Assembly (NCBI RefSeq): GCF_900218015.1
Contig: NZ_UFQQ01000023.1
Location: forward strand, 1-64,000
Origin: Rhodopseudomonas pentothenatexigens
GTDB lineage: Bacteria > Pseudomonadota > Alphaproteobacteria > Rhizobiales > Xanthobacteraceae
Length of the DNA: 64,000 bases
Direction of reading: 5' to 3'
Position numbers and translations under genes: made by a program. Below, in pieces: positions 45,794-62,105 of this stretch (its first letter is position 1; every line of letters starts with the position of its first letter). The notes beneath the pieces are model-generated. The model was not told the origin of the DNA. It was given only the letters and a program-made list of their open reading frames with translations, and ran no database searches.

Positions 45794-45948
45794 CGGCGCC
45801 GATCCTCGCGATGTCAGGCGTCGGCTCGGAGATCGCCCGGCACCACCCCGTCGTCAATGCAGCATGCAGCGTACAGTGTCGATCCGATCGATAGCAATGA
45901 ACCATACCCCCGGCGGTGTCACCGAGAGCTCGACGGTGTCCCATCGAA

Positions 45949-45969
45949 GCGATGATCCGGCATCATCGC
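45949..45969 (-). terminator. Hairpin between the stress protein and antiporter genes
   Basis: GCGATGAT (45949-45956) and ATCATCGC (45962-45969) form a perfect eight-base stem with a CCGGC loop, 57 bases downstream of the leftward universal stress gene. No T-run follows. The rest of the 232-base gap 45794-46025 should contain the antiporter promoter. Confidence 0.4.
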
Positions 45970-46025
45970 CGCCCTCGGACGCGATCGGAACGCGGCATAT
46001 GGGCGCGGTCGGCCCGATGCGCGCC

Positions 46026-46865
46026 TCAGTGATACAAAAACAGGGCACACGGCGGATTCGCGACCAGCTCATCCGTGGTCGAACCGAACAACGCCTCGCG
46101 GAACCCGCGGCGCCCGTAGGCGCCCATCACCAGGGTGCCGACCTTGCGATCGGCGACCATCAGCCGGATCGCTTCCGACGGCTCGACGCCGGAGGCGAGC
46201 GGACGGGAGTCCGACTGGTAGCCGTGAACCCGCAGATACGATGCTGCAGCCGCACAATTGCGTGCGGCAGCCTCCTCGTTCCGATCGACCGCCGCGACCA
46301 CGATCCGCTGATCGGCGCCGAGGCCGAGCAGCACGAACATCTGCAGCGCGCGCATCGCCGCGATGCTGCCGTCGTAAGCGATCAGCACCTCCTCGCCCTC
46401 CGGCAACGCATCCGGACAGACGATCATCGGCCGCGGCGTCCGCAGCAGCAGCTTCGCCAGCACCTCCGACAGCGGCTCGTCGAGGTCGCCGCCGTAGCCG
46501 GTGTCGTGACCGGCCACGACCAGATCCCGGGTCTCGCTGGCGAGCTGGAAGGCGTCGAGCGGATCGCCCTCGAACGCCAGCCATTCGAACGCGAGGCCGC
46601 GGCCCCTGCATTCCTGCTCGAACGCCTCGTGCAGGCGTTGCTGCGCGTCCTCCGCCTGGCGTTTCAGCTCCTGCTCGAGCTGGGCCTGATAGGCCGAGGT
46701 CCCGATCCCGCCGAGCATCGGGGTTTCGATCGTCGAGGGATCGAGCCCGGCGAGCCCTGCCAATTCTGTCCCGGTCCGCTGCACCAGGTTGAACGCATAG
46801 CGCCGCGCCGCGACCGACGAGGCGGTCTGACCGAGCAGGATCAAGGTGCGTTTGAGCATGGACAT
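46026..46865 (-). CDS. Tandem universal stress protein
   Basis: A 279-residue cytoplasmic protein with two UspA folds. The C-terminal domain has the ATP-binding motif GAYGRRGFREALFGSTTDEL. The N-terminal domain is degenerate, with VVAGHDTGYGGDLDEPLSEV in place of the G-2x-G-9x-G(S/T) loop. ATG at 46865 is preceded by GGGAGAG; the longer frame is not supported. It lies 157 bases downstream of cyoD in the same direction and upstream of the antiporter operon, so it may belong to a stress or respiration regulon. Confidence 0.88.
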   Translation of the reverse strand: MSMLKRTLILLGQTASSVAARRYAFNLVQRTGTELAGLAGLDPSTIETPMLGGIGTSAYQAQLEQELKRQAEDAQQRLHEAFEQECRGRGLAFEWLAFEGDPLDAFQLASETRDLVVAGHDTGYGGDLDEPLSEVLAKLLLRTPRPMIVCPDALPEGEEVLIAYDGSIAAMRALQMFVLLGLGADQRIVVAAVDRNEEAAARNCAAAASYLRVHGYQSDSRPLASGVEPSEAIRLMVADRKVGTLVMGAYGRRGFREALFGSTTDELVANPPCALFLYH

Positions 46866-47022
46866 CCGACTCTCCCGTGTCGCTGCGTGCCCATCGCGCA
46901 TGATCACCGCAACGAAGGCTCGCCGGCGGAACATGCCTTGCGGATCGCGCTCGCACCACGTCGATCGGCGATCGGTTGGGCGGCATTGTGTCGCGCGGGC
47001 GTGGATGCGAACGGCAGCCCCG

Positions 47023-47418
47023 TCACCCGCCCGTCCGCATGAAGTGCTCCATCGGCATCATGTTGTGATTGAGGTGACCCATGATCCAGATCGAACCGCC
47101 GACCACCAGCAGCACGATCAGGCTGCCGAAAGCCAGCGCCATGACGTTGTTGGTATTGTCCGGCCCCGTAGTGATGTGCAGGAAGAACACCAGCTGAACA
47201 CCCATCTGGGCGATCGCCAGCACCGCGATCGCCACCGGAATGCTCGGCTGCCACACCAGGTCGGTGCCGGCGACGAAGAACGAGGCTGCGGTGAGCAGCA
47301 CCGACAGCCCGAGCCCGGCACCATAGCCGAGCAGCCGCGGGCCGATGCGAACTTCTTCCTCGTCGCCGGGCGCGACATCGTATGGCTCGCCGTCGCGGCC
47401 GGTTCGCTGCTCACTCAT
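47023..47418 (-). CDS. cyoD: Cytochrome o ubiquinol oxidase subunit IV
   Basis: A 131-residue membrane subunit with three membrane segments: LGLSVLLTAASFFVAG, PVAIAVLAIAQMGVQLVFFL with HI after it, and ALAFGSLIVLLVVGGSIWIM. These are typical of CyoD. The ATG at 47418 overlaps the cyoC stop by four bases. The hydrophilic N-terminus is longer than in E. coli. No cyoE (haem O synthase) follows; it must be elsewhere. Confidence 0.92.
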   Translation of the reverse strand: MSEQRTGRDGEPYDVAPGDEEEVRIGPRLLGYGAGLGLSVLLTAASFFVAGTDLVWQPSIPVAIAVLAIAQMGVQLVFFLHITTGPDNTNNVMALAFGSLIVLLVVGGSIWIMGHLNHNMMPMEHFMRTGG

Positions 47419-48065
47419 GTGCCGCTCCCCAGGAGATAGACCATCGAGAAGATCGCCACCCAGATGATGTCGAGCGCGTGCCAGAACAGCGAGAAGCACA
47501 GCAGCCGCCGGCAGATGTCGGCGCGAAAGCCCTTGGCGAACACCTGCGCCATCATGATGAGCAGCCACAGCACGCCCACCGTCACATGCAGCCCGTGGCA
47601 CCCCACCAGCGTGAAGAACGCCGACAGGAACGCGCTGCGAGTCGGCCCGGCCCCCTGCTCCACCAGGCCGGTGAACTCGCGCAGCTCCAAGCCGAGAAAG
47701 GCGACGCCGAGCAGCCCGGTCACCGCCATCGCCGCCTGAAACCAGCGCTGGCTGCCGACCGCGGCGGCAATGCTCGCCAACCCGCAGGTGAAGCTCGACA
47801 GCAGCAGGCAGCCGGTCTCGACCGCGACATTGCGCAGATCGAACAATTGCGCGCCGCCCGGCCCGCCGGCGGTCGCCCCCGCCAGCACCGCGTAGCTGGC
47901 GAAGAAACAGGCGAACATCACGATGTCGGACAGCAGGAAGATCCAGAAGCCGTAGCCGACCACGATCCGCTTCGGCGCCGGTCCTTCGTGGCCGACGCCT
48001 GCGGATTGCAGCCCACGCAAATGATGCGGGTCGGCCTGGCCGTGGGACAGCGAGACCTCGGTCAT
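47415..48065 (-). CDS. cyoC: Cytochrome o ubiquinol oxidase subunit III
   Basis: A 216-residue membrane protein with five hydrophobic segments. Motifs: [53 protein letters not shown] and [20 protein letters not shown]. The ATG at 48065 overlaps the cyoB stop (ATGA). The longer frame is a shadow of cyoB. Confidence 0.93.
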
Positions 48066-50065
48066 GGCGTCCGCCCCGCCGCGTCGAGCGCCGCGCGCCG
48101 CGCAGCGATGTTGGCGCCGTCGATCCGCGCGACCTCTGCCGCCGGGATGACGTATTCGTCGCGGTCGCGCCAGGCGAACACCATGAAGGTGGCGAACGCT
48201 CCGATTCCGCCGAGCACGACCATCCACCAGATGTGCCAGACCATCGCGAAGCCCATCACCGTGGCGAAAAACGCGCAGACGAAGCCGGTCGGCGAATTCC
48301 GCGGCATCTCGATGTCGCGATAGTCCCGCTTGCGGGTTTCGAGGCCGTGCTGCTGCGCCTTGCGCTTGGTGGCCCAATACGCGTCCTCGCCGGAAACGTC
48401 GGGATCGACCGCAAAGTTGAACACCGGTGGCGGCGACGACGTCGCCCATTCCAGCGACCGCCCGTCCCAGGGATCGCCGGTGAGGTCGCGCAGCTCGTCG
48501 CGACGGCGGATGCTGACCACGAACTGCACGATCTGCAGCACGACGCCGGTCGCGATGATCGCGGTGCCGATCCCCGCCACGATCATCCACGGATGCCAGG
48601 CCGCGACGTCGTAGTGCTGCAGACGGCGGGTCATGCCGAGCAGGCCGGCGACGTACAGCGGCATGAAGGTGACGTAGAATCCGACCAGGGTGAACCAGAA
48701 CGCCGCCTGGCCGAGCCCCTCGTGCAGCCGGAAGCCGAACGCCTTGGGAAACCAGTAGGTGTAGCCCGCGAACGCGCCGAACAGCACGCCGCCGATGATG
48801 ACGTTGTGGAAGTGGGCGACCAGGAACAGGCTGTTGTGAAGCTGGAAATCCGCGGGCGGCACCGCGACCAGGACGCCGGTGAGTCCGCCGATGATGAAGG
48901 TGACCATGAAGCCGACCGCCCACAGCATCGGCGTCGCGAACCGGATCCGCCCGCCGTACATCGTGAACAGCCAGTTGTAGATCTTCACCCCGGTCGGCAC
49001 CGCGATGATCATGCTGGCGATGCCGAACACCGCGTTGACTGTGGCGCCGGCGCCCATCGTGAAGAAGTGGTGCAACCACACCATGAATGAAATAATGCAG
49101 ATCGCCATCGTCGCCAGCACCATCGAGCGGTAGCCGAACAGCGGCTTGCCCGAGAAGGTCGACACCACTTCGGAGAACACCCCGAATGCCGGCAGCACCA
49201 TGATGTAGACCTCCGGATGGCCCCAGGCCCAGATCAGGTTCATGAACATCATCATGTTGCCGCCGGCTTCGTTGGTGAAGAAATGGAAGCCGAGATAACG
49301 GTCGAGCAGCAGCATCGCCAAGGTCGCGGTCAGGATCGGAAACGCGGCGACGATCAGCAGGCTGGAGGCCAGCGTGGTCCAGCAGAACATCGGCATCCGC
49401 AAATAGGTCATGCCGCGCGTGCGCAGCTTCAGCACTGTGGTGACCAGATTGATCCCCGCCAGCAGCGTGCCCAGCCCGGAGATCTGCAGCGCCCAGGCGT
49501 AGTAGTCGACGCCGACGCCGGGCGAGTAGCTGAGCTCGGACAGCGGCGGAAACGGCAGCCAGCCGGTGCGGGCGAATTCGCCGACCACCAGCGACAGGTT
49601 GACCAGCAGCGCCCCGCTCGCAGTCAGCCAGAAGCCGACCGAATTCAGCGTCGGAAACGCGACGTCGCGCACCCCGAGCTGCAGCGGCACGATCAGGTTC
49701 ATCAGGCCGATCACGAACGGCATCGCGACGAAGAAGATCATGATCGTGCCGTGCGCGGAGAAGATCTGGTTGTAGTGTTCCGGCGGCAGATAGCCGGGCG
49801 ACTGGAAGGCGATCGCCTGCTGGGTGCGCATCATCATCGCGTCGGTTCCGCCGCGCAGCAGCATCACCATCGCGAGCAGCACGTACATCACGCCGATCCG
49901 CTTGTGGTCGACGCTGGTGATCCACTCGCGCCACAGATAAGGCACGTAGCCCTTGATCAAGGCCGACAGCAGCGTAGCGAGGATCGCCGCCATCACGATG
50001 GCGGCGGCGATCAGCGGGATTGGCTGATCGATCGGAATGGCCGACCAGTCGAGCTTGCCGAGCAT
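48062..50065 (-). CDS. cyoB: Cytochrome o ubiquinol oxidase subunit I
   Basis: Catalytic haem-copper subunit, 667 residues. The binuclear centre is clear: [20 protein letters not shown] carries the Cu His and the cross-linked Tyr, [10 protein letters not shown] the two further Cu His, and [20 protein letters not shown] the haem His ligands. The low-spin haem His lies in [20 protein letters not shown]. It starts at ATG 50065 with GGGGAG ten bases upstream; a TTG at 50083 is an alternative. It overlaps the end of cyoA by 55 bases in another frame. It reduces O2 with quinol electrons and pumps protons. Confidence 0.96.
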
Positions 50066-50904
50066 ATCGCGTTGGCTCCCCAATTCGCCTCGATGTACGA
50101 CTGTGCGCCCTCACCGGCCGGCCGCGGCCCCGGCTGCGGCGGGATCTGCTGCGTACTGATCGCGTGAAACAGCAGCGGATCGGCGAGCCGGTAGGCCGGC
50201 GTGCCGTTCACCGGCGCCTGCTTCATCAGATCTTTGTAGCTGTCGGCATTCAGCTCACGGCCGCTGGACGCGGTCTTGGCGACCCATTCCGGGAACGCGA
50301 TCGGCGACACCACGTGCACCGGGAACATCATGTCGGGAAACCCGTCACCACTGAAATGCGACGACAGCCCGCGCAGCTCGCCCTCGCTGTCGGCCCGCAG
50401 ATTGAGCCGCGTCACCATGCCGTTCATGGTGTAGATCATGCTGCCGAGCTGCGGGATGAAGAACGCGTTCATCACGCTCGCCGAGGTCAGTTCGAACTTG
50501 AGCGAGGCGCCGACCGGCACGGTCAGCGTGTTGATGGTGGCGATGCGCTGATCCGGGTAGATGAACAGCCACTTCCAATCCATCGACACCACCTGGATCC
50601 GGATCGGACTGCCGGTGCCTTCGACCGGCCTTGCGGGGTCGAGCCGGTGCGCGCCGATCCAGGTCACACCGCCGAGCAGGATGATGGTCAGCAACGGGAT
50701 CGACCACACCACCAGCTCGATCCGTCCGGAATAGGTGAAGTCCGGGCGATGCTTGGCGCGCGGATTGGATTCCCGAAACCAGAAGGCAAACGCGAGGATT
50801 GCGACGATCGTCGGCACGACGATCGCGAGCATGATCACGACGGAATCGATCAGGATCGACGAGTTCCCGTACGCGACCGGACCTTTGGGATCGAGGATAT
50901 TCAT
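50011..50904 (-). CDS. cyoA: Cytochrome o ubiquinol oxidase subunit II
   Basis: Subunit with two membrane helices ([40 protein letters not shown]) and a periplasmic cupredoxin domain with [20 protein letters not shown] and [20 protein letters not shown]. The Cu-A ligands are absent, as expected for quinol oxidases. The best start is ATG at 50904 ([13 protein letters not shown], 297 aa). Enterobacterial CyoA has a lipoprotein signal ending in Cys just before the same NxxLDPKG sequence; here a Cys codon sits directly before the ATG but no hydrophobic signal precedes it. The start is therefore uncertain. Confidence 0.88.
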
Positions 50905-51092
50905 GCAAGCGACTTGACCGCGTGGCGGTGGATGCCACGTGGCTCGGCAACTTTCGGCGCCTGCAGCGGTTCCTAATTTCGAACCGAGCAGACCTACCGA
51001 TCGCCGAATCACGGAACACCGGCCGTTCGCCGCCGTTGAAAGCATGCGTGCAGAGCCGCGCACGACCTTCCCCAAGGCTTCGAGGTGAACCG

Positions 51093-51914
51093 ATGTGCCG
51101 CTGGCTGGCATACCGCGGAGAAGAAACATCGTTCGACAGCTACGTCACCGAACCCGTCCACTCTCTGATCAATCAGAGCCTGCGCGCGCGGGAGTCCGCC
51201 GGCAGCACCAATGGCGACGGATTCGGCCTCGGTTGGTACGGGGTCCATCCCGAACCCGGGCTGTATCGCGAGACCAGGCCGGCATGGTCCGATGAAAACC
51301 TGCGCTATCTCTGCCGGCACCTGCAGTCGCCCATGTTCTTCGCCCACGTGCGTGCCGCCACCGGAACCGCGGTGACCCGGCAGAACTGTCACCCGTTCGC
51401 CTGCGGTCGCTGGCTGTTCATGCACAACGGATTCATCGGAAGCTGGAGCCGGCTGCGTCGCAAGGTGGAAGCGATGATTCCCGACGAGCTGTATCCGTCA
51501 CGCGTCGGCACCACCGACTCCGAGGCGGTGTTCCTGGCGATGATGGGGCAGGATCTCGATCTCGATCCGATTCGCGCGGCGCAGCGCGTGATACGCGCGC
51601 TGTGCGAACTGGTCGACGAAGACGGATTGCGGGAGCGGATGCGTTTCACCTCGGCGCTCGCGAACGGCCAGGATCTCTATGCCTTCCGTTTCGCCCACAA
51701 CGACACCGCGAACACGCTGTATTATCGCGAGGACGGACCGCTGGTGGTGGCCTCCGAGCCGTTCGACACCGAGCAGCACTGGTCTGAAGTACCAGCCGAC
51801 CACGTGCTGATTTCACGCCCCGGTCTTCCGGTCGAAATCCGCCCCTTCATGCCGGACCGGGGGATTGTGACGCAGGAACTCAAGGTTGCTCAAAATGTTG
51901 TCGAGCGAGCTTAA
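51093..51914 (+). CDS. Class II glutamine amidotransferase (YafJ/EgtC-like)
   Basis: A 273-residue Ntn hydrolase consisting of a single glutaminase domain. It starts MCRWLAYRGE; Cys2 becomes the N-terminal nucleophile. FAHVRAATG (about 83-91) and FMHNGFIGSW (about 109-118) are substrate-binding motifs, and GTTDSEAVF follows. GAGGTGA precedes the ATG at 51093; the upstream frame overlaps the cyoA promoter region. It is first of three rightward genes with only 29 bases to the next. Stand-alone proteins of this type include EgtC, which hydrolyses a gamma-glutamyl amide in ergothioneine synthesis. The substrate here is unknown. Confidence 0.85.
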   Translation: MCRWLAYRGEETSFDSYVTEPVHSLINQSLRARESAGSTNGDGFGLGWYGVHPEPGLYRETRPAWSDENLRYLCRHLQSPMFFAHVRAATGTAVTRQNCHPFACGRWLFMHNGFIGSWSRLRRKVEAMIPDELYPSRVGTTDSEAVFLAMMGQDLDLDPIRAAQRVIRALCELVDEDGLRERMRFTSALANGQDLYAFRFAHNDTANTLYYREDGPLVVASEPFDTEQHWSEVPADHVLISRPGLPVEIRPFMPDRGIVTQELKVAQNVVERA

Positions 51915-51943
51915 AAGATCGGCAACGGAGGCCCCGAAGAAAG

Positions 51944-53713
51944 ATGTGTGGAATCTGCGGAGAGATCCGCACACGTGGCGAGCCCTCGATCTCGTCGTTG
52001 AAAGCCGTCACCGGCGCGATGCGGAAGCGCGGTCCCGATTCCGAGGGATTGTTCGCACAAGACCACATGGCGTTCGGCCACCGCCGACTGAGCATTCTCG
52101 ATCTGGCTCCCGCCGCGCAACAGCCGATGATCGACAGCGAACTCGGCCTCGGCATCGTCTTCAACGGATGCATTTATAATTTCCGCGAACTGCGCGACGA
52201 CCTGACCCGGCGCGGCTATCGGTTCTTTTCGCAGGGCGACACCGAGGTCATCCTCAAGAGCTATCATGCCTGGGGCGCCGACTGCGTCGCAAGGTTCAAG
52301 GGCATGTTCGCCTTCGCGCTGTGGGAGCGCGACAGCGGCCGCGTCGTGCTGGCGCGGGACCGCCTCGGCATCAAGCCGCTGTACTACGTCGATGGCCCCG
52401 ACTCTTTCCGCTTCGCCTCCGATCTGCCCGCCTTGCTGGCGGGCGGTGGTGTCGACACCTCGCTCGATCCGGTCGGGCTGCATCACTTCTTCAGCTTCCA
52501 TGGCGCCGTGCCGCCGCCGCGCACCATTCTGCGCGGCGTGAAGAAGCTGGAGCCCGCCACCATCCTGACGCTGGAGCCGGACGGCTCCAAGACGACCCGG
52601 CGCTATTGGAGTTTTGCGGTCGGCGCCCGGCGCGACGATCGGGCAATGACCGAACAGGAATGGACCGAAGCCGTCACCGAGGCGATGCTGACCGCGGTCG
52701 ATCGTCGCCGCGTCGCCGACGTCCCGGTCGGTGTGCTGCTGTCCGGCGGACTGGACTCCTCGCTGATCGTCGCGCTGCTCGCCCGGCTCGGTCATGCCGA
52801 CGTCAAGACCTTCGCCATCGGCTTCGACAGCGTCGGCGGCCACAGCGGCGACGAATTCCATTATTCCGACCTGGTGGCGAAGCACTTCTCCACCGCGCAC
52901 GAGCAGATCCGGATCGACGGCCGCGAGGCGCTGCAGCATTTGCCGGATGCGATCCGGGCGATGTCGGAGCCGATGGTCAGTCACGACGCAGTCGCTTTCT
53001 ATCTGTTGTCGCGCGAGGTCGCCAAGCGCGTCACGGTGGTGCAAAGCGGCCAGGGCGCCGACGAGGTGTTCGGCGGCTATAGCTGGTATCCTTCGCTGCT
53101 GACGGCAAACAATGCCTCCGACCAGTATCGCGAGGTGTATTTCGACTGGAAGCATTCCGACATCGCCAGGCTGCTGACGCCGGATTTCGAGGCCGACGAC
53201 TATAGTTCGGAATTCGTCGAGAGTTTCTTCGATCGGACCTCGGCGAGTTCGCCGGTCGACAAGGCGCTGCAGATCGACGCCGAGATCATGATGGTCGACG
53301 ATCCGGTCAAGCGGGTCGACAACATGACCATGGCTCACGGCCTGGAAGCGCGGGTGCCGTTTCTCGACCACGAGGTCGTCGAGCTCGCCGCCCGGCTCCC
53401 CACTTCGCTGAAGCTCGGCGATGGTGGCAAGTACATCCTGAAGAAGGCCGCCCGGGCCTTGCTGCCCGCCGAAGTGATCGACCGGCCGAAGGGCTATTTC
53501 CCGGTGCCGGCGCTGCGGCATCTGCGCGGCGAATTCCTCGACTATGTTCGCGATGTCCTGTCCTCCTCCGCCGCACGCAGCCGCGGTCTGTATCGATCCG
53601 AATTCATCGATCACATGCTCGATCATCCCGAAGCAGAAATGAGCCCGAAAGGTCATTCGCGGCTGTGGCAGGCCGCCCTTCTCGAAGCCTGGTTGCAGAC
53701 CCATGCCGTTTGA
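51944..53713 (+). CDS. Asparagine synthetase-like amidotransferase
   Basis: A 589-residue glutamine-hydrolysing ATP-dependent amidotransferase. The glutaminase domain starts MCGICGEI with nucleophile Cys2 and has RGPDSEG and FNGCIYNFRELR (Gly-Asn variant with Cys at the usual Glu position of NGEIYN). The synthetase domain has the ATP pyrophosphatase loop LLSGGLDSS (265-273) and VQSGQGADEVFGGY. It resembles AsnB paralogues linked to N-acetylglutaminylglutamine amide synthesis rather than true asparagine synthetase. It overlaps the downstream ligase gene by 11 bases, so the two are translationally coupled and probably act in one pathway. Confidence 0.87.
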   Translation: MCGICGEIRTRGEPSISSLKAVTGAMRKRGPDSEGLFAQDHMAFGHRRLSILDLAPAAQQPMIDSELGLGIVFNGCIYNFRELRDDLTRRGYRFFSQGDTEVILKSYHAWGADCVARFKGMFAFALWERDSGRVVLARDRLGIKPLYYVDGPDSFRFASDLPALLAGGGVDTSLDPVGLHHFFSFHGAVPPPRTILRGVKKLEPATILTLEPDGSKTTRRYWSFAVGARRDDRAMTEQEWTEAVTEAMLTAVDRRRVADVPVGVLLSGGLDSSLIVALLARLGHADVKTFAIGFDSVGGHSGDEFHYSDLVAKHFSTAHEQIRIDGREALQHLPDAIRAMSEPMVSHDAVAFYLLSREVAKRVTVVQSGQGADEVFGGYSWYPSLLTANNASDQYREVYFDWKHSDIARLLTPDFEADDYSSEFVESFFDRTSASSPVDKALQIDAEIMMVDDPVKRVDNMTMAHGLEARVPFLDHEVVELAARLPTSLKLGDGGKYILKKAARALLPAEVIDRPKGYFPVPALRHLRGEFLDYVRDVLSSSAARSRGLYRSEFIDHMLDHPEAEMSPKGHSRLWQAALLEAWLQTHAV

Positions 53714-54935
53714 TCAGAAGATTCTCGACAAGCTGCGGCTCAATCTGAGCGCCAATCAGCAGCACCTGGTGATCCGGTCGGCGATCGGCATCGACGCCAA
53801 TGCCGCCTATTCGTTCGGCATCGAAGAGGAGTATTTCCTCGCCGACGCCGAGACCTTCGAGGTCGCGATGCAGACGCCGAACGGCCTGTTCGAGAGCGCA
53901 AGCTGGTCGACCGGCGGCCAAGCGATGCGCGAGATGCTGCAGGCGCAGATCGAAGTCGCCAGCAATGTCCATGTCGATCCCAGCGATGCGCGGGAAGAAC
54001 TGCGCTTCCTGCGGGGCGAGGTGGCGGCTGCGGCGGCCCAGCACGGCCTGGTGATCATGGCGAGCGCCACCCATCCGACCGCATCGTGGCGGTTTTCCAA
54101 GCCGAGCCCGAAGCCGCGCTATGAGGAGATGATCGAGGATCTGCGCACGATCGGCCATCGCAACATGCTGTGCGGGATGCACGTTCATGTGCAGATTCCG
54201 CCGCATGCCGAGCGCGTCGCAGTGATGCGTGCGATGATCCCGTATCTGCCGCTGTTCATCGCGTTGGCGACCTCGTCGCCGTTCTGGAACGGCAAGGAGA
54301 CCGGCCTGCGCGGCTATCGCCTCGCCGCCTACGACGAATTACCCCGCACCGGCCTGCCGGAATTGTTCACCACTCAGGCCGAATACGACGCCTATGTCGA
54401 AGCGCTGGTCCGGTCCGGCGTGATGCCGAACGAGAGCTACGTGTGGTGGGCGCTGCGGCCGTCGCTCCGCCATCCGACGCTCGAACTGCGCGCGCCGGAC
54501 GTGTGCACACGCCTCGAGGACGCGGTGCTGATCGCGTCGTTGTATCGGGGCCTCATCAAGTATCTCTGCGAGCATCCCGATTCGGCCCAGAAGGTCGGCA
54601 ACGTCGAGCGCGCGATCGCGGTCGAGAACAAATGGCGCGCTCAGCGCTATGGCACCGACTGCATCTTCGTGTCGAAGGATGGACCGATCGAGATCCGCGA
54701 ATTTCTCGACCAGGTGATCGCACGGGTGCTTCCCGGCGCAGAGGCCCTGGGCTGCGCCGCCGAGGTCGAAGGCTGCCGCACCATTCTGGACCGCGGCAGC
54801 TCGGCCGATGCTCAGCTTCGGGCCTATCGCGACTCCGGCGGCGACCTCAGTGCGGTGACGCGTTGGATTGCGCGCCAGACCCTCGGGGAGAGCTCCGCCC
54901 CCTCCGCGCGCGGACCTGCCGAACGGGTCCAGTAA
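53703..54935 (+). CDS. GCS2-type carboxylate-amine ligase (YbdK/EgtA-like)
   Basis: A 410-residue ATP-dependent ligase of the glutamate-cysteine ligase type 2 family, forming amide bonds between a carboxylate (often the gamma-carboxylate of glutamate) and an amine. GIEEEYF (39-45) binds metal-ATP, CGMHVHVQIP (157-166) carries conserved His residues, and SLRHPTLELRAPDVC and IEIREFLDQVIAR follow. Length fits YbdK proteins (about 370-400). It starts inside the end of the upstream gene. Third gene of the amidotransferase cassette; convergent with the RND pump gene 33 bases on. The substrates cannot be read from sequence. Confidence 0.87.
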   Translation: MPFDQKILDKLRLNLSANQQHLVIRSAIGIDANAAYSFGIEEEYFLADAETFEVAMQTPNGLFESASWSTGGQAMREMLQAQIEVASNVHVDPSDAREELRFLRGEVAAAAAQHGLVIMASATHPTASWRFSKPSPKPRYEEMIEDLRTIGHRNMLCGMHVHVQIPPHAERVAVMRAMIPYLPLFIALATSSPFWNGKETGLRGYRLAAYDELPRTGLPELFTTQAEYDAYVEALVRSGVMPNESYVWWALRPSLRHPTLELRAPDVCTRLEDAVLIASLYRGLIKYLCEHPDSAQKVGNVERAIAVENKWRAQRYGTDCIFVSKDGPIEIREFLDQVIARVLPGAEALGCAAEVEGCRTILDRGSSADAQLRAYRDSGGDLSAVTRWIARQTLGESSAPSARGPAERVQ

Positions 54936-54968
54936 CGTTCTGCGGCCTCCAGCCCCGGCCGGGTCGCA

Positions 54969-57900
54969 TTACGGATGCGACCCCACCGCGGTCTGTCGCG
55001 GTTCCGGCTCGTGGGAGGCCGGCGCCAACGGCGCGGCGTGGTCGACCGTTCCTTCGCCGTGCTGCGTCAGCGGCCGGTTGCCGCTGAGCGCACGCAGCAG
55101 CACGTAGAACATCGGCGTGAAGAAGATGCCGAACGCCGTGACCCCGATCATGCCGGCGAACACCGCAACGCCCATCGCGTGCCGCATCTCCGAGCCGGCG
55201 CCGGTGGACGTCACCAGCGGCACCACGCCCATGATGAAGGCCATCGAGGTCATCAGGATCGGCCGCAGTCGCAGCCGGCTGGCCTCGATCGCGGCCTCGA
55301 TCGGCTTTCGCCCGGCGAATTCCAGCTCTCGCGCGAATTCCACGATCAGGATGGCGTTCTTGGCCGACAGGCCGACCAGGACGATCAGGCCGATCTGGGT
55401 GAAGACGTTGTTGTCGCCCTTGCTGATCCAGACGCCGAACATCGCAGCGAGCAGCCCCATCGGCACGATCATGATGATCGACAGCGGCAACGTCAGGCTC
55501 TCGTACTGTGCGGCGAGCACCAGGAACACCAGCAGCAGCGCCACCGGAAACACGATCATCGACGAGTTGCCGGCGATGATCTCCTGGTAGGTCAGCTCGG
55601 TCCATTCGTACGAGGTGCCTTTCGGCAGCGTCTCCTTGGCGACGCGGTCGATCGCGGCCTGCGCCTGCCCGGTCGAAAAGCCGGGCGCGGCGCCGCCGCT
55701 GATATCTGCGGTGAGAAAGCCGTTGTAGCGCATCGCCCGCTCCGGCCCGGCGCTTTCCTTGACCCGCAGCAGCGTCGACAGCGGGATCATCTCGCCGGTG
55801 TCCGAGCGCACCTTGAGCTGGCCGATGTCGTCCGCCCGCGCCCTGAACTTGGCGTCGGCCTGCACCCGCACCGAATAGGTGCGGCCGAATTTGTTGAAAT
55901 CGTTGACGTAGAGCGAGCCGAGATAGATCTGCATGGTCTCGAAGATCGAGGTCACCGGCACGTTGAGCTGCCGCGCTTTGGTACGATCGACGTCGGCATA
56001 GAGCTGCGGCACGTTGATCTGGTAGCTGGTGAACAGCCCGGCCAGTTCCTTCTGCGCACTCGCCTTGGCGACGAACGCCTTGGTGGCATCGTTGAGGGCC
56101 TCGTAACCCAGCCCGGCGCGATCCTCGATCTGCAGCTTGAAGCCGCCGATGGTGCCGAGCCCGGCGACCGGCGGCGGCGGGAACATCGCGATGAACGCAT
56201 CCTGGATGCCGGCGAACTTCTTGTTCAGCGATAGCGCGATTGCGTTGCCGCTGAGCGACTTGTCCTTGCGTTCGGCGAAGTCCTTCAGCCCGATGAAGAC
56301 GATGCCGGAATTCGACGAGTTGGTGAAGCCGTTGATCGACAAGCCGGGAAACTGGATCGAATTCTCGACCCCCGGCTCCTGCTGGGCGATCTCGCCCATC
56401 CGGCGGATCACCTCCTCGGTGCGGTCCAGCGTGGCGCCGTCCGGGAGCTGCGCGAAGCCGACCAGATATTGCTTGTCCTGCCCCGGCACGAAGCCGCCGG
56501 GCACGGCCTGGAACAACCAGAAGGTGGCGCCGACCAGCAGCAGATACACGGTCATGCCGAGCGCGCGGCGCGACACCACCCGCCTGACGCCGCCGCCATA
56601 GGCTTCCGAGCTGCGGCTGAAGAAGCGGTTGAAGCGGACGAAAAACCAGCCGAGCGTCTTGTCCATCAGCTTGGTCAGCGCATCCTTCGGCGCGTCGTGT
56701 CCCTTCAGCAGCAGCGCGGCCAGCGCCGGAGACAGCGTCAGCGAGTTGAATGCGGAGATCACCGTCGAGATCGCCACCGTCAGCGCGAACTGCTTGTAGA
56801 ACTGTCCGGTCAGACCGGTGATGAAGGCCAGCGGCACGAACACCGCGACCAGCACCAGCGCGATCGCAATGATCGGCCCGGTGACCTCGCGCATCGCCTG
56901 ATAGGCCGCGTCCTTCGGCTCGAGCCCGCGCTCGATGTTGCGTTCGACGTTTTCGACGACCACGATGGCATCGTCGACCACGATGCCGATCGCCAGCACC
57001 AGCCCGAACAAGGTCAGTGCATTGATCGAGAATCCGAACACGTGCATCACCGCGAAGGTGCCGATCACCGACACCGGCACCGCGATCAGCGGAATGATCG
57101 AGGCCCGCCAGGTCTGCAGGAACAGGATCACCACCAGCACCACCAGGGCGATCGCTTCCAGCAGGGTGTGGATCACCGCCTCGATCGAGGCGCGGACGAA
57201 CTGTGTCGGATCGTAGACGATGTCGTAGGAGACGCCGTCCGGCATGTTCTGTTTCAGCTCCTTCATCGTCGCGCGGACGTTGTCGGAGATCTGAATCGCG
57301 TTGGAGCCCGGCGACTGGAAGATCGGGATCGCCACCGCGGACTTGTTGTTGAGCAGCGAGCGCAGCGCGTAGTCGGCGGCACCGAGCTCGATCCGCGCGA
57401 CATCGCGCAGCCGCACCACTTCGCCATTGTCGCCGTTCTTGACGATGATCTCGCCGAATTCCTCTTCGGTCTGCAGCCGGCCCTGAGCATTGACCGAGAG
57501 CTGAAGGTCAAGCCCAGGTTCGCCCGGCGAACTGCCGACCTGCCCGGCCGCGGCCTGAACGTTCTGGGCCCGGATTTCCCGCACCACGTCGGCCGGGGAC
57601 AGACCGCGCTCGGCGACCTTCTGCGGATCGAGCCAAATCCGCATCGAATAGTCGCCGGAACCGAACAACTGCACCTGGCCGACGCCCGGAATCCGCGCCA
57701 GCCGATCCTTGACGTTGAGCACCGCGTAGTTGCGCAGATACGTCATGTCGTAGCGGTCGTTCGGCGACATCAGATGCACCACCATGGTCAGGTCGGGTGC
57801 ACTCTTGATGGTGGTGATGCCGAGCGCGCGAACCTCCGCCGGCAGCCGCGGCTCGGCCTGCGAGACGCGGTTCTGCACCAGTTGTTGCGCCTTGTCGGGG

Positions 57901-58202
57901 TCGGTGCCGAGACGGAAGGTGACGTTGAGGGTCATCTTGCCGTCGGTGGTCGCCTGGCTGCTCATGTACAGCATATTCTCGACGCCGTTGATCTGCTCCT
58001 CGATCGGCGTCGACACCGTCTCGGCAATGACCCTGGGATTCGCGCCGGGATATTGCGCCGACACCACGATGGTCGGCGGCGCGACCTCCGGATATTCGGA
58101 GATCGGCAGCACCGGCATCGACAACAGGCCGGCGAGGAAGATCAATGCCGACAGCACGCCGGCGAAGATCGGGCGATCGATGAAGAACTTGGAGAAATTC
58201 AT
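54969..58202 (-). CDS. RND family multidrug efflux transporter (HAE1, AcrB/MexB-like)
   Basis: Inner-membrane proton-driven exporter, 1077 residues. N-terminus FSKFFIDRPIFAGVLSALIF is typical of HAE1 pumps. The proton relay Asp pair lies in GIVVDDAIVVVENVERN in TM4; the second half repeats the topology with GLSAKNAILIVEFARELE and its Lys. The periplasmic domain includes GLSPADVVREIRAQNVQ and GGFVPGQDKQYLVGFAQLPD. It is co-directional with the adaptor gene 129 bases upstream; no outer-membrane channel gene is in the window, so it presumably uses a shared TolC-like protein. Confidence 0.95.
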   Translation of the reverse strand: MNFSKFFIDRPIFAGVLSALIFLAGLLSMPVLPISEYPEVAPPTIVVSAQYPGANPRVIAETVSTPIEEQINGVENMLYMSSQATTDGKMTLNVTFRLGTDPDKAQQLVQNRVSQAEPRLPAEVRALGITTIKSAPDLTMVVHLMSPNDRYDMTYLRNYAVLNVKDRLARIPGVGQVQLFGSGDYSMRIWLDPQKVAERGLSPADVVREIRAQNVQAAAGQVGSSPGEPGLDLQLSVNAQGRLQTEEEFGEIIVKNGDNGEVVRLRDVARIELGAADYALRSLLNNKSAVAIPIFQSPGSNAIQISDNVRATMKELKQNMPDGVSYDIVYDPTQFVRASIEAVIHTLLEAIALVVLVVILFLQTWRASIIPLIAVPVSVIGTFAVMHVFGFSINALTLFGLVLAIGIVVDDAIVVVENVERNIERGLEPKDAAYQAMREVTGPIIAIALVLVAVFVPLAFITGLTGQFYKQFALTVAISTVISAFNSLTLSPALAALLLKGHDAPKDALTKLMDKTLGWFFVRFNRFFSRSSEAYGGGVRRVVSRRALGMTVYLLLVGATFWLFQAVPGGFVPGQDKQYLVGFAQLPDGATLDRTEEVIRRMGEIAQQEPGVENSIQFPGLSINGFTNSSNSGIVFIGLKDFAERKDKSLSGNAIALSLNKKFAGIQDAFIAMFPPPPVAGLGTIGGFKLQIEDRAGLGYEALNDATKAFVAKASAQKELAGLFTSYQINVPQLYADVDRTKARQLNVPVTSIFETMQIYLGSLYVNDFNKFGRTYSVRVQADAKFRARADDIGQLKVRSDTGEMIPLSTLLRVKESAGPERAMRYNGFLTADISGGAAPGFSTGQAQAAIDRVAKETLPKGTSYEWTELTYQEIIAGNSSMIVFPVALLLVFLVLAAQYESLTLPLSIIMIVPMGLLAAMFGVWISKGDNNVFTQIGLIVLVGLSAKNAILIVEFARELEFAGRKPIEAAIEASRLRLRPILMTSMAFIMGVVPLVTSTGAGSEMRHAMGVAVFAGMIGVTAFGIFFTPMFYVLLRALSGNRPLTQHGEGTVDHAAPLAPASHEPEPRQTAVGSHP

Positions 58203-58331
58203 GGCTGTGGTCCGCCGGTTCGCTCGCGCGCGAGCGCAATGATGCCTGCACGGCGGACGGGAGGTCTGCCGCGTGATTGTCTACCGAAAACAATGAGGTG
58301 CGGACCCGCCGTGGCGGCGGGGCCGCAGCGG

Positions 58332-59531
58332 TTAGTTCTGAGCCACCGTTTTGTTGGGATCGGCGGCATCCATCGCCACCGTCTCCGGCTTGATGGTGAC
58401 GCCGGGCCGGACCCGTTGCAGCCCGTTGACGACGATGCGCTCGCCGGCCTTCAAGCCGGACGCCACCACCCGCAGGCCGTCGACCGAGGCCCCCAGCGTC
58501 ACTTCGCGATACTGCGCGTGGTTCTCGGCATCGACCACCATCACGAATTTCTTGTTCTGGTCGGTGCCGACCGCGCGCTCGCTGACCAGCAGCGCAGGCT
58601 CGGGCTTCGGCTGCCCCATCGACAGCCGCGCGAACTGGCCCGGCATCAGCCGGCCGTCGGCATTGTCGAACACCGCGCGCACCCGCACCGTGCCGGAGCG
58701 CGGATCGACCTGATTGTCGATGAACTGCATCTTGCCCTTCACCGGCGCTCCGCCGGCGATCGTCGTCATCTCGACCGGAATCCGTTCGATCGCACCCGGC
58801 GTGTTCTCGTCGGCAAGCGTCTTCAGCGCGCGGGTCACCACCTGCTCGTCGGCATTGAAGCTGGCATAGATCGGGTTGACCGAGACCAGCGTGGTCAGCA
58901 GCGGCGAACTCGGGCCGGCGGCAATCAGGTTGCCGACCGTGATCTCCACCTTGCCGACCCGGCCGGACACCGGAGCGCGGATCTCGGTGTAGCTGAGATT
59001 GAGCTCTGCGGTCTTCAGCGCCGCTTCGGCGGATTTCAGGTTCGCCTCGGCCTCACGATAGGCGTTGAGGCGGTTGTCGACCTCGCGCTGGGTGATGCTG
59101 GAACTGGAGAGCTGTTGGCTGCGTTCGACATCCGCCTTGGTGAAGACGACGCGCGCGCGAGCAGCCGACAGCTGCGCCTGGGCGCGATCGACCTCGGCGG
59201 CATACAGCGACGGATCGATCCGGACCAAGAGGTCGCCCTTGTTGACCAGCGCGCCCTCCCTGAACTGGATCTCCTGGACGGCACCGGCGACCCGCGAGCG
59301 GATCTCGACCCGCTCGATCGCCTCGAGACGCCCGGAGAACTCGTCGGACGGCGTCGTGGCCTTGGTCTGGACCAGCGCCACCGACACCGGCACGGCGGCG
59401 GGCGCCGCCGCTGTGGGTTCCGCCTGGGCGGCCCCGGTGCGCTCCATCAGCGCAGCGCCGCCGGCCAACGCGATCGAAACCGCAATCATTCCCGCGCCGA
59501 GCGCAGTCTTTCGAGCGAGTGGAGTAGCCAT
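58332..59531 (-). CDS. RND efflux periplasmic adaptor (membrane fusion protein)
   Basis: A 399-residue adaptor linking the pump to an outer-membrane channel. It has an N-terminal membrane anchor (ALGAGMIAVSIALAGGAALM) without a lipobox Cys, the lipoyl half-motifs EIRSRVAGAVQEIQFREGAL and LSYTEIRAPVSGRVGKVEIT, a helical hairpin between them, and the beta-barrel region NPIYASFNADEQVV. The first gene of the efflux operon, divergent from the TetR gene; the promoter region between carries two operators. Confidence 0.94.
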   Translation of the reverse strand: MATPLARKTALGAGMIAVSIALAGGAALMERTGAAQAEPTAAAPAAVPVSVALVQTKATTPSDEFSGRLEAIERVEIRSRVAGAVQEIQFREGALVNKGDLLVRIDPSLYAAEVDRAQAQLSAARARVVFTKADVERSQQLSSSSITQREVDNRLNAYREAEANLKSAEAALKTAELNLSYTEIRAPVSGRVGKVEITVGNLIAAGPSSPLLTTLVSVNPIYASFNADEQVVTRALKTLADENTPGAIERIPVEMTTIAGGAPVKGKMQFIDNQVDPRSGTVRVRAVFDNADGRLMPGQFARLSMGQPKPEPALLVSERAVGTDQNKKFVMVVDAENHAQYREVTLGASVDGLRVVASGLKAGERIVVNGLQRVRPGVTIKPETVAMDAADPNKTVAQN

Positions 59532-59648
59532 CGCGAATCCTATTTGATCAGGTAAGCTTGTAAAAAGCCCAGCAGATTCAGTAACTCGTCCGTACAGCGG
59601 GATGGTGACGACCGAATATCATCATACCACGCTGCAGCGCACATATCC

Positions 59649-59662
59649 ATACCGTCTGGTAT
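59649..59662. promoter_or_regulatory. TetR operator 1 (adaptor side)
   Basis: ATACCGTCTGGTAT is a perfect inverted repeat with a four-base centre (TACC-N4-GGTA core). On the minus strand it follows TTGACA (59684-59689), overlapping the region just after a -10-like TCTATA, so a bound repressor would block the pump operon promoter. Confidence 0.7.
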
Positions 59663-59672
59663 AGATGGACTA

Positions 59673-59701
59673 TCGACATCCACTGTCAAGAGACTTATCT
59701 A
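59673..59701 (+). promoter_or_regulatory. Candidate promoter of the TetR gene
   Basis: TCGACA (59673-59678) and TATCTA (59696-59701) are 17 bases apart and point toward the tetR start at 59733. The -10 box overlaps operator 2, which predicts autorepression. Confidence 0.45.
59684..59689 (-). promoter_or_regulatory. Candidate -35 box of the RND operon
   Basis: On the minus strand this reads TTGACA. Eighteen bases further, TCTATA is a possible -10 box that abuts operator 1. Divergent promoters interleaved with two operators is the usual layout for TetR-controlled efflux genes. Confidence 0.4.
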
Positions 59702-59712
59702 CCGCTTGGTAG
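59699..59712. promoter_or_regulatory. TetR operator 2 (repressor side)
   Basis: CTACCGCTTGGTAG is a perfect inverted repeat with the same TACC-N4-GGTA core as operator 1, 50 bases away (about five helical turns). It lies 21 bases before the tetR start codon. Confidence 0.7.
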
Positions 59713-59732
59713 AAATCTCTGGAGATTCAGCC

Positions 59733-60320
59733 ATGGCCCTGGGACGCCCCCGCGAATTCGACGTCGACGCAGCGCTCGACCTCGCTTTGCATGTGTTCTG
59801 GCGCAAGGGGTACGAAGGCACCTCGATGGCGGACCTCACCGAGGCGATGGGGATCACCAAGCCGAGCCTGTATGCGGCGTTCGGCAACAAGGAAGATCTG
59901 TTCCGGAAAGCGCTCGATCGCTACGTCGACGGCCCCGGCGGCTACTATCAGGCAGGCCTGCAGAAGCCGACCGCGCGCGAGGTCGTCGAGCACATCCTGT
60001 ACGGTGCGGTCGATGCGATGACCGATCCAGGAAACCCCGGCTGCCTCGCCGTACAAGGCGCACTGTGCTGCGGCGAAGCCGCCGAGACCATCAAGCAGGA
60101 ACTGGCGGCGCGCCGCGCCAAGGGCGAGCAGGACCTGCACGACCGTCTGGCCCGTGCGATCGCCGAAGGCGATCTGCCATCCGGCACCGATGCCGGGGAC
60201 CTCGCCCGCTACGTGTCGGCGATCCTGCAAGGCATAGCGGTGCAGGCGGCAGGCGGCGCCTCCTCCGATCAGTTGCGCAAGCTGGCCGACATGGCCCTGC
60301 GGAACTGGCCGCCGGTGTGA
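59733..60320 (+). CDS. TetR family repressor of the RND operon
   Basis: A 195-residue repressor. HTH: MALGRPREFDVDAALDLALH, then FWRKGYEGTSMADLTEAMGI and TKPSLYAAFGNKEDLF. The C-terminal ligand domain carries a CLAVQGALCCGEAAE segment with several Cys. ATG at 59733 has GGAG eight bases upstream; an earlier in-frame start lacks it. The gene is divergent from the efflux adaptor and the intervening DNA contains two matching operators, so local repression of both units is a strong inference. Confidence 0.9.
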   Translation: MALGRPREFDVDAALDLALHVFWRKGYEGTSMADLTEAMGITKPSLYAAFGNKEDLFRKALDRYVDGPGGYYQAGLQKPTAREVVEHILYGAVDAMTDPGNPGCLAVQGALCCGEAAETIKQELAARRAKGEQDLHDRLARAIAEGDLPSGTDAGDLARYVSAILQGIAVQAAGGASSDQLRKLADMALRNWPPV

Positions 60321-60438
60321 CGCCGCGACGATCGCGGGCCGCCGGCCACAAACATTTCGTTAAGGATACGGCGACCCGATTACCAACATTGCGCGCAGTT
60401 GCCATCGCTTATTAGGAACTGCGAGCGATGTTGCGCGC

Positions 60439-61608
60439 ATGCGCTTCCCGCCATTGTCCCGCTCCCTGCACGCCGACCCACGCATTCGCCGCGAGTTGGT
60501 CGAACTGCTCTACACGTCGCTGCCGCAGGTGATGGCGATCGGCGTGACCTCGGTCACGGGCGCGGCGACCTTGACGCTGCTCGGCGGCGATCCCGGCTAC
60601 GCTGTGATCTCGGTGTTCATCCTGGTCACCGCCACCGCACGCGTGGTCTCGTTGATGCGCTACAAGGCGCGGGCCGACCAGTTCTCCGACGCCGACGTGG
60701 TGCGCTGGGAGCGGCTGTACGGCGCCGGCGCGACCGCGTTCGGCCTCGCGCTGGGCGCGCTGTCGTTTCGCGCGCTGCAGCTCGGTGACGCGCCGGGCGC
60801 CTGGATCGCGTTCGGCCTGTCGATGTCGTACTGCGTCGGGATGGTGTCGCGCGCGGCGATCCGGCCGTGGATCATCCTCACCGCGGCTGCGGCGCTGCTG
60901 GCGCCGACGATCATCGCCGGCGTGATGCGCCCGGAGCTGGCCTACAAGATCGGGGCCGGCATGCTGGTGCTGTTCTGGCTGACGCTGCGCGAAGCCTCCA
61001 AGCATCTCAGCGCGGCGTTCACCGAGCGGCTCGAAGCCAAGCACCGGCTGGCGCGTCAGGCCACCCACGATTTCCTCACCGGTCTGCCGAACCGCGCCGG
61101 CTTCCTGCAGGCGCTCGCGAACTCCCGCGGCAGCTTCACCGTGATCGCCATCGACCTCGACGGCTTCAAGCCGATCAACGACCGCCACGGCCATCACGCC
61201 GGCGACGATCTGTTGCGGCAGGTCGCGGAGCGGCTGACCGCCTGCGCCGGCGCCGACGGCATTGCCGCGCGGTTCGGCGGCGACGAGTTCATGCTGCTGA
61301 AGCCGGTCGCCGCCGCGGAGCCCGGCCGTGACGAAGCGCTGGCGCTGGCCCGCCGCGCGGTGTTCGATCTGTCGATGCCGTTCGTGCTGTCCGATCTGCC
61401 GGTATGCATCGGTGCCAGCGCCGGAATCGCCGTGAGCGGTACGGCCCTCACCGATGGTTCGACCGCGCAATTCCTGGAGCGGGTCGACCGCGCACTCTAC
61501 GCCGCCAAACGCGCCGGCGGCGGTTGCGCCTGGGCGGACGACGCCGACGAAAAACGGCCAGGCTGCGACGGCGGCGGCAGTGCGCTCCCCAGCCCGGCGG
61601 CGGCCTGA
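60439..61608 (+). CDS. Membrane diguanylate cyclase without inhibitory site
   Basis: A 389-residue GGDEF protein. Residues 20-185 contain about five to six membrane segments with no known sensor domain. The catalytic domain has DFLTGLPNRAGF, AIDLDGFKPINDRHGHHAGD and GGDEF (280-284), so it should make cyclic di-GMP. The RxxD inhibitory site five residues upstream is absent (GADG instead), which would remove product inhibition. The C-terminal 30 residues are low-complexity. ATG at 60439. It stands 118 bases after tetR and is probably independent. Confidence 0.86.
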   Translation: MRFPPLSRSLHADPRIRRELVELLYTSLPQVMAIGVTSVTGAATLTLLGGDPGYAVISVFILVTATARVVSLMRYKARADQFSDADVVRWERLYGAGATAFGLALGALSFRALQLGDAPGAWIAFGLSMSYCVGMVSRAAIRPWIILTAAAALLAPTIIAGVMRPELAYKIGAGMLVLFWLTLREASKHLSAAFTERLEAKHRLARQATHDFLTGLPNRAGFLQALANSRGSFTVIAIDLDGFKPINDRHGHHAGDDLLRQVAERLTACAGADGIAARFGGDEFMLLKPVAAAEPGRDEALALARRAVFDLSMPFVLSDLPVCIGASAGIAVSGTALTDGSTAQFLERVDRALYAAKRAGGGCAWADDADEKRPGCDGGGSALPSPAAA

Positions 61609-61700
61609 CGCCGCGACCTGCGGCAACCCGAGACCGAGCCGGCGCCCGTCGGATCGCAACGCTGGACCAAAACCTCGGCGCCGCCGCCGGATCGTGACGA

Positions 61701-62105
61701 TCAGGTCTTGGGCGCCGCCGCCTTGGGTGCGGCGGCCGGCCTGGGCGCCGCCGCCGGCTTGTCCGCAAAGCCGTTGTAGCAGGCGAGCCGCTCGTCCTCT
61801 TCCTTGACCTGGCGACAATCCGCCGCGGTCTTGGCGGGCTTTGATTTGGCGCCAGCCTTGGTCGGTTTGGGCGGATGGATCGCATCGAAGCAGTCCAGCC
61901 GCTCCTTGGTGGCGTCCTCGATCTCCAGACACGCCTTCATGCGGTCCGCGACCGAAGGCCTGCCCGCCGCCTTGTCGCCCTTCGGCTTGATCTGCACCAG
62001 CGGCCGGTCGCCGACCATCGGTGCCGCACCGGAGGCCGGTGCGTTGCTCTGCGCCAGCGCCGCGCTCGAAGCCAGCAGCGCGGCAAGTACCACGATCGTT
62101 CTCAT
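61701..62105 (-). CDS. Small exported protein with two Cys-RLxC motifs
   Basis: A 134-residue protein starting at ATG 62105 with a clear signal peptide (RTIVVLAALLASSAALAQ). Two similar units follow: MKACLEIEDATKERLDCFDA and DCRQVKEEDERLACYNGF, each with a Cys pair around an acidic helix. Such C-x(10-12)-RLxC(F/Y) motifs occur in many small periplasmic proteins and probably form disulfides. The rest is Ala/Pro/Lys-rich linker and tail. No function is known. Confidence 0.75.
   Translation of the reverse strand: MRTIVVLAALLASSAALAQSNAPASGAAPMVGDRPLVQIKPKGDKAAGRPSVADRMKACLEIEDATKERLDCFDAIHPPKPTKAGAKSKPAKTAADCRQVKEEDERLACYNGFADKPAAAPRPAAAPKAAAPKT

Follow-up and report, generated by a model that had tools for sequence, protein, structure and literature searches.

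An EgtC-like amidotransferase, an AsnO-type amidotransferase and a YbdK-type ligase form a recurrent gene cassette without the N-acetylglutaminylglutamine amide synthetase in Rhodopseudomonas pentothenatexigens

In the current study, we have analyzed a stretch of 64,000 nucleotides (the window) from Rhodopseudomonas pentothenatexigens (contig NZ_UFQQ01000023.1 of assembly GCF_900218015.1), in which three intact open reading frames, all on the forward strand, form a tight operon. Their predicted products are an EgtC-like stand-alone class II (Ntn) glutamine amidotransferase or gamma-glutamyl amidohydrolase (GAT, 51093–51914, 273 amino acids), an AsnO-type glutamine-hydrolysing amidotransferase (ASN, TIGR03104, 51944–53713, 589 amino acids) and a YbdK-type GCS2 carboxylate-amine ligase (LIG, 53703–54935, 410 amino acids). 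In the synthesis of N-acetylglutaminylglutamine amide (NAGGN), AsnO amidates N-acetylglutaminylglutamine once the synthetase Ngg has made it (PMC8070244, in the part consulted). The linkage of the three genes is well supported and, as the trio recurs without the synthetase for the known substrate of ASN, it probably makes a small amidated molecule other than NAGGN. With a confidence that stays slightly short of even, we read the trio as a relative of the NAGGN amidation module that does without Ngg, in which LIG would form a gamma-glutamyl-type amide, ASN would amidate it and GAT would cleave the gamma-glutamyl bond.

Absence of the NAGGN synthetase and co-occurrence of GAT

The sequence-only reading of the window, made before this analysis, had remarked that the usual acetyltransferase partner of ASN is missing, and this was borne out for the whole genome (5.38 Mb in 69 contigs, with completeness rated 100%; the window lies in contig C49), where the best match to the Ngg family TIGR03103 scored 22.6 bits against a cut-off of 569. 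In Aquabacter, asnO has been reported as present and the NAGGN synthesis genes as absent (PMC11059613, in the section available). In a sample of 150 genomes including that of R. pentothenatexigens, searched with TIGR03104 at E ≤ 1e-150, TIGR03103 at E ≤ 1e-60 and GAT at E ≤ 1e-40, TIGR03104 was detected in 30 genomes. Ngg was present in 13 of these, always adjoining on the same strand by coordinates, and absent from the other 17, our genome included. GAT was found in all 17 Ngg-free genomes vs only one of the 13 Ngg-bearing ones (G101, 41% identity; Fisher 1.5e-7). The association was also seen within the family (90 genomes, 38 with GAT; 17/17 vs 21/73, Fisher 3e-8) and outside the genus (10/10 vs 21/64, Fisher 6e-5), all three values being uncorrected for relatedness and the latter two tests counting two Ngg-bearing genomes of the family as lacking ASN. 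Among named genomes with a GAT locus, Ngg occurs in 1 of 17 (Pseudovibrio exalbescens, whose GAT has neither ASN nor LIG nearby), and in none of the seven with the full trio (six Bradyrhizobium and one Rhodopseudomonas).

Wider samples place this association within the distribution of TIGR03104. In the class (387 genomes), TIGR03104 was detected in 23 genomes, one of them (G439) with a partial match under the cut-off, and Ngg is over the cut-off and adjoining in 21 of the 22 TIGR03104 genomes other than our own. The sole exception, G406, belongs to a distant order of the same class and carries GAT-ASN-LIG in the same order, with identities of 37, 49 and 29%, respectively. Among 216 genomes of that order, TIGR03104 is found in five: the same three genes recur in G640, GAT-ASN occurs in G594 and Ngg in G577, while no GAT, LIG or Ngg was detected in the stretch examined of G614. 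In the phylum sample (397 genomes), TIGR03104 is present in 45, with an Ngg relative within the stretch in 35 and none in nine; G1041 falls outside the Ngg inspection, and the Ngg status of seven genomes refers to the local stretch only. The nine Ngg-less loci include the trio in G000 and G406 and an ASN-LIG pair in G1021. Several TIGR03104-type proteins without an Ngg relative in the stretch have other partners or none (L221, L231, L236–L240), with a RimK-type ligase frame adjoining in L221 and an AstE/AspA-type frame in L238. These mixed partners indicate that TIGR03104 spans more than one kind of system, and the equivalog name over-reaches.

Linkage across the genus and the family

In the genus sample (16 genomes including our own, at the thresholds used), the trio is complete in seven genomes and none of the three genes is found in nine, four of which have LIG matches only at E about 5e-4 to 9e-4. 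The ratios of nonsynonymous to synonymous substitution rates (dN/dS) of GAT, ASN and LIG against six congener loci range from 0.07 to 0.32, pointing to purifying selection; together with the all-or-none presence, these values argue that the trio is not a chance assembly.

The order GAT-ASN-LIG is also found in six Bradyrhizobium loci. Other arrangements include ASN-GAT (G028, G033, G074, Pseudolabrys, and G030, the latter on the same contig as L067), LIG-GAT (L061), ASN-LIG-GAT (G089, with ASN truncated by the contig end) and ASN-LIG (G1021, and G019, with GAT on another contig). When at most four genes per side were compared (fewer where contigs are short), the flanks of nine cassette lineages had gene families in common in a single case, L061 with G089. 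With almost no common flank families, the linkage does not reflect passive synteny. The three genes are repeatedly linked in Nitrobacteraceae/Xanthobacteraceae and in a distant order of the same class, so that the main condition by which the earlier reading would have fallen, their not occurring together in other genomes, did not refute it. The cassette that it had proposed holds as a recurrent linked unit, in a looser form than described, with GAT-LIG, ASN-GAT, LIG-GAT and ASN-LIG pairs and with ASN missing or internally deleted in some lineages.

The AsnO-type amidotransferase

The ASN translation begins with MCG and contains an intact SGGLDSS motif. Of 21 motif positions checked, whose roles we presume, 18 are invariant in 97 of 97 homologues, one is kept in 96 and one in 93, and a further one is G or A in 96. 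ASN passes the cut-off of TIGR03104, the NAGGN amidotransferase family, with 942.4 bits (cut-off 570.1), and that of the asparagine synthase family TIGR01536 with 444 bits (cut-off 267.1), a score far under the former. The match to TIGR01536, and the existence of TIGR03104-type proteins without nearby Ngg, GAT and LIG (L231, L236–L240), would fit an ordinary asparagine synthetase with GAT and LIG as unrelated neighbours. This explanation appears quite improbable, however, given the all-or-none trio in the genus (7 and 9 of 16), its linkage within differing flanks and the nine congeners that live without ASN.

All trees were obtained by quick searches with support from the Shimodaira–Hasegawa-like approximate likelihood ratio test (SH-aLRT). 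A single clade of 24 rows (support 100), none of them Ngg-linked, comprises the synthetase-free ASN proteins of the family, and the ASN of two Ngg-linked genomes of the same family are placed among the Ngg-linked rows. Between the family cassette ASN and Ngg-linked AsnO, 4 of the 218 positions that both groups conserve are separating, and against the rhizobial Ngg clade the count is 12 of 250, as compared with 3 of 216, 13 of 245 and 27 of 284 for the Ngg-linked clades among themselves. By positions, the family cassette ASN is thus no farther from Ngg-linked AsnO than the Ngg-linked clades are mutually, which is in favor of NAGGN or a near copy still being made, with the role of ASN kept and LIG plus an unlinked acetyltransferase in place of Ngg. 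The layout of the trio, with ligase, amidotransferase and hydrolase, is also like that of the NAGGN trio of L158, and two genomes without Ngg, G038 and G082, have a GNAT acetyltransferase gene in tail-to-tail orientation with GAT (L161 7555–8058 and L162 7335–7823), with no ASN or LIG nearby. On the other hand, no GNAT domain was found in the Pfam-scanned flanks of the window cassette, L038, L041 and L053, a scan covering part of the flanking genes and loci. Moreover, a Gln-Gln alpha-peptide is not an obvious outcome of GCS2 ligases, which usually activate the gamma-carboxylate (PMC2588565, as far as the consulted part goes). Taken together, we consider continued NAGGN synthesis by such a route unlikely.

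A sister relationship of the distant ASN group to the family clade is possible though not certain. Convergent assembly of the two distant cassettes, which the quick ASN tree had raised, was dropped, because holding the ASN groups together gave a better likelihood (approximately unbiased test, p-AU 0.635) and a single GAT clade was not rejected (p-AU 0.0955).

As a separate observation, the unlinked ASN adjoins a protein with amino-acid-kinase and PUA domains in L148 (3813–8043, G029) and L154 (6199–9340, G082), and in L148 it also follows an OBG-type GTPase (Pfam). We take the kinase-PUA protein to be glutamate 5-kinase-like.

The ligase and the EgtC-like hydrolase

LIG carries a GIEEEYF motif and passes the cut-offs of NF010039/PRK13515 (492.9 bits, cut-off 371) and TIGR02050 (284.9 bits, cut-off 176.4), its nearest solved chains being 1tt4 and YbdK (1r8g). 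It resembles the YbdK/PRK13515 ligases in these scores and differs from them in that the cassette LIGs of the family form their own clade of 21 rows, distinct from the solitary ligases (support 99), and have a longer N-terminus. In LIG, an extension of 38 amino acids (53703–53816, forward strand) precedes GIEEE and, by comparison of start codons, is a mark of cassette ligases. Among the ligases listed, which leave out rows such as L021 and L029, an ATG 5–8 codons ahead of G[IV]E[EIL]E was found in 20 of 21 solitary ligases (L025 is the exception) and in none of 23 cassette-type ones, which start 33–44 codons ahead of the motif and have a conserved N-terminal block; all these start codons are predictions. 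The AlphaFold model of LIG is weak (mean predicted local distance difference test score, pLDDT, 61.8; residues 1–30 below 50). The distant cassette ligases look like another GCS2 subfamily, to which their best match scores 396.8 bits, just under the cut-off of 409.

The GAT translation shows Cys2 and the MHNGF motif, and C2, R87, N112, G113 and D142 are among the residues conserved in at least 97% of 84 homologues. GAT matches Pfam GATase_4 with 72.5 bits, and its nearest solved chain is 3mdn_A (E 3.4e-66). Against the EgtC family TIGR03442 it reaches 192.2 bits, under the cut-off of 218.65, and is therefore EgtC-like, yet not EgtC by that test. With ergothioneine clusters in view, no common partner was seen among the neighbours listed for eight GAT loci outside the family, for which no family search on the neighbours was made. 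In Streptomyces omiyaensis (L083, 10001–13367), a GCS2 ligase with 30% identity lies 1.4 kb downstream of GAT, with one small frame between them. GAT relatives also occur on plasmids (30 records in one listing and 28 in another), among them one with 47% identity on pSymB of Sinorhizobium meliloti (L249, 5001–5816), with no ASN or LIG annotated alongside.

Relation to known systems and a candidate pathway

The NAGGN module (asnO-ngg-M42 peptidase; TIGR03104, TIGR03103 and TIGR03106) has the same amidotransferase family and motif residues as the trio, and in both a ligase, an amidotransferase and a hydrolase adjoin. The two differ in that the trio genome is without Ngg and the local stretch is without an M42 relative, a GCS2 ligase and an EgtC-like hydrolase being found instead; a tblastn search with the M42 peptidase of L158 gave no relative in window positions 43001–62000 or in 29 other loci listed, the remainder of the genome not being searched. 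In ergothioneine synthesis, EgtA and EgtC likewise combine a GCS2-type ligase and a class II Ntn amidohydrolase acting on gamma-glutamyl amides, an activity that is predicted for the trio, and EgtC removes the glutamyl residue from an intermediate (PMC9103826, in the part consulted). The trio differs from this system in the addition of an AsnO-type enzyme and in that both GAT and LIG score under the respective cut-offs, LIG reaching only 18.9 bits against 370.8 for EgtA (TIGR03444). None of the flanking window genes scanned with Pfam was of Egt type, EgtB and EgtD not having been searched for genome-wide.

From the enzyme families, we infer three reactions, their order and the type of product. 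Enzymes with the GCS2 ligase fold couple an activated carboxylate, which is usually the gamma-carboxylate of glutamate, to an amine (PMC2588565, consulted in part). In the trio, LIG would use ATP to activate a gamma-carboxylate, most likely that of glutamate, and couple it to an amine to give a gamma-glutamyl-type amide; ASN would then use ammonia from glutamine to amidate a carboxylate of the conjugate, in the manner of AsnO in the NAGGN pathway. GAT may hydrolyse the gamma-glutamyl amide, either as a final removal (protect, amidate, deprotect) or in the recycling of the product, which could be a small molecule, an amidated amino acid or dipeptide, and might serve as a stress solute. A more specific version, which we find possible though doubtful, is an undescribed pathway in which the GCS2 ligase adds a gamma-glutamate cap to an amino acid or amine, the AsnO-type enzyme amidates the carboxylate of the capped compound and the EgtC-like enzyme uncaps to release a new C-amidated metabolite; the name NAGGN amidotransferase would then be wrong for this clade. 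Its hosts would be Rhodopseudomonas, several Bradyrhizobium and members of the distant order of the same class. The earlier interpretation in terms of an amide or peptide other than the known ones agrees with these results in the linked unit, the missing Ngg and the scores of GAT and LIG under the EgtC and EgtA cut-offs, while the enzyme roles that it assigned are read from family membership.

Several observations weigh against an Ngg-free amidation module of three genes. In 52 of 65 GAT loci, neither ASN nor LIG is present in the stretch examined, and none of three plasmid GAT loci opened has ASN or LIG annotated alongside; S. meliloti, one host of a plasmid GAT, is cited with both AsnO and Ngg in the consulted part of PMC8070244. 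GAT is present, unlinked, in 3 of 21 Ngg-bearing genomes of the class, and 6 of the 9 Ngg-less TIGR03104 loci of the phylum are without GAT and LIG in the stretch. LIG is widespread, with matches in 117 of 150 genomes at E ≤ 0.001, many of them weak; its presence in all 17 Ngg-free genomes therefore carries little weight, and, given how common LIG is throughout the family, we rejected its co-occurrence with Ngg-free ASN as evidence. The three genes lie apart in 4 of the 17 Ngg-free genomes (G029, G038, G077 and G082). At the level of residues, only 7 of 188 positions separate solitary Ngg-less ASN from Ngg-linked AsnO, and for the distant cassette ASN the counts are 19 of 216 against Ngg-linked AsnO and 36 of 243 against the ASN of the family cassettes; few separating positions are no proof of like function.

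ASN is also dispensable in some lineages. Four Bradyrhizobium-type loci have GAT-LIG without ASN, and in G034 an internally deleted ASN (L190, 4668–5528, reverse strand) lies between open GAT and LIG frames, keeping its first three codons and resuming near residue 305, so that both the glutaminase domain and the SGGLDSS loop are lost. The persistence of GAT and LIG without ASN suggests a ligase-hydrolase cycle of its own, with amidation as an added step. These loci, along with LIG-GAT in L061, would be expected if GAT and LIG were a pair that adds and removes gamma-glutamyl groups in thiol or amine metabolism (EgtA/EgtC-like or gamma-glutamylcysteine) with ASN optional, and YbdK has been credited with gamma-glutamyl:cysteine ligase activity (Lehmann et al. 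2004, by its title, as listed in the consulted part of PMC2588565). However, GAT and LIG fall under the EgtC and EgtA cut-offs, and ASN-GAT pairs without a linked LIG recur too, so that we give this explanation a small chance.

No description of a GAT-ASN-LIG set was found in the literature searched, largely without subscription papers. The amidoligase survey of Iyer and colleagues from 2009 might contain one. The set is not described in the consulted parts of PMC2922099 and PMC2588565.

Locus layout and neighbouring genes

GAT and ASN are separated by 29 bases (51915–51943, forward strand), which include a GGAGG stretch resembling a ribosome-binding site (51927–51931) upstream of ASN; GAGGTGA precedes GAT, and ASN and LIG overlap by 11 bases. 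The coordinates, motifs, gap, overlap and rightward operon given by the sequence-only reading agree with the translations. A scan for promoters found 0 vs 0.8 expected, terminator-like sites numbered 2 vs 2.1 expected, and Rfam gave no match within window positions 44000–60000. On one side, the cassette is flanked by a Mrp-type antiporter subunit, Usp, COX4 and COX1, and on the other by AcrB, HlyD, TetR and GGDEF proteins (Pfam); the flanking frame at 50014–50892 had no Pfam match. The neighbours of the cassettes were called with a simple script, which did not call GAT of the window and is good for neighbours and not for exact starts. A tRNA-Ala called by ARAGORN (41399–41487, reverse strand) lies inside a long reading frame of the same strand and is probably spurious.

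Conclusions

The AsnO-type amidotransferases can be divided by whether the NAGGN synthetase accompanies them, and recurring partners can now be named for one synthetase-free group. This implies that the automatic name NAGGN amidotransferase gives a wrong metabolic prediction for some of the Nitrobacteraceae and Xanthobacteraceae. Overall, the trio offers a compact and testable route to what would be a new amidated metabolite.

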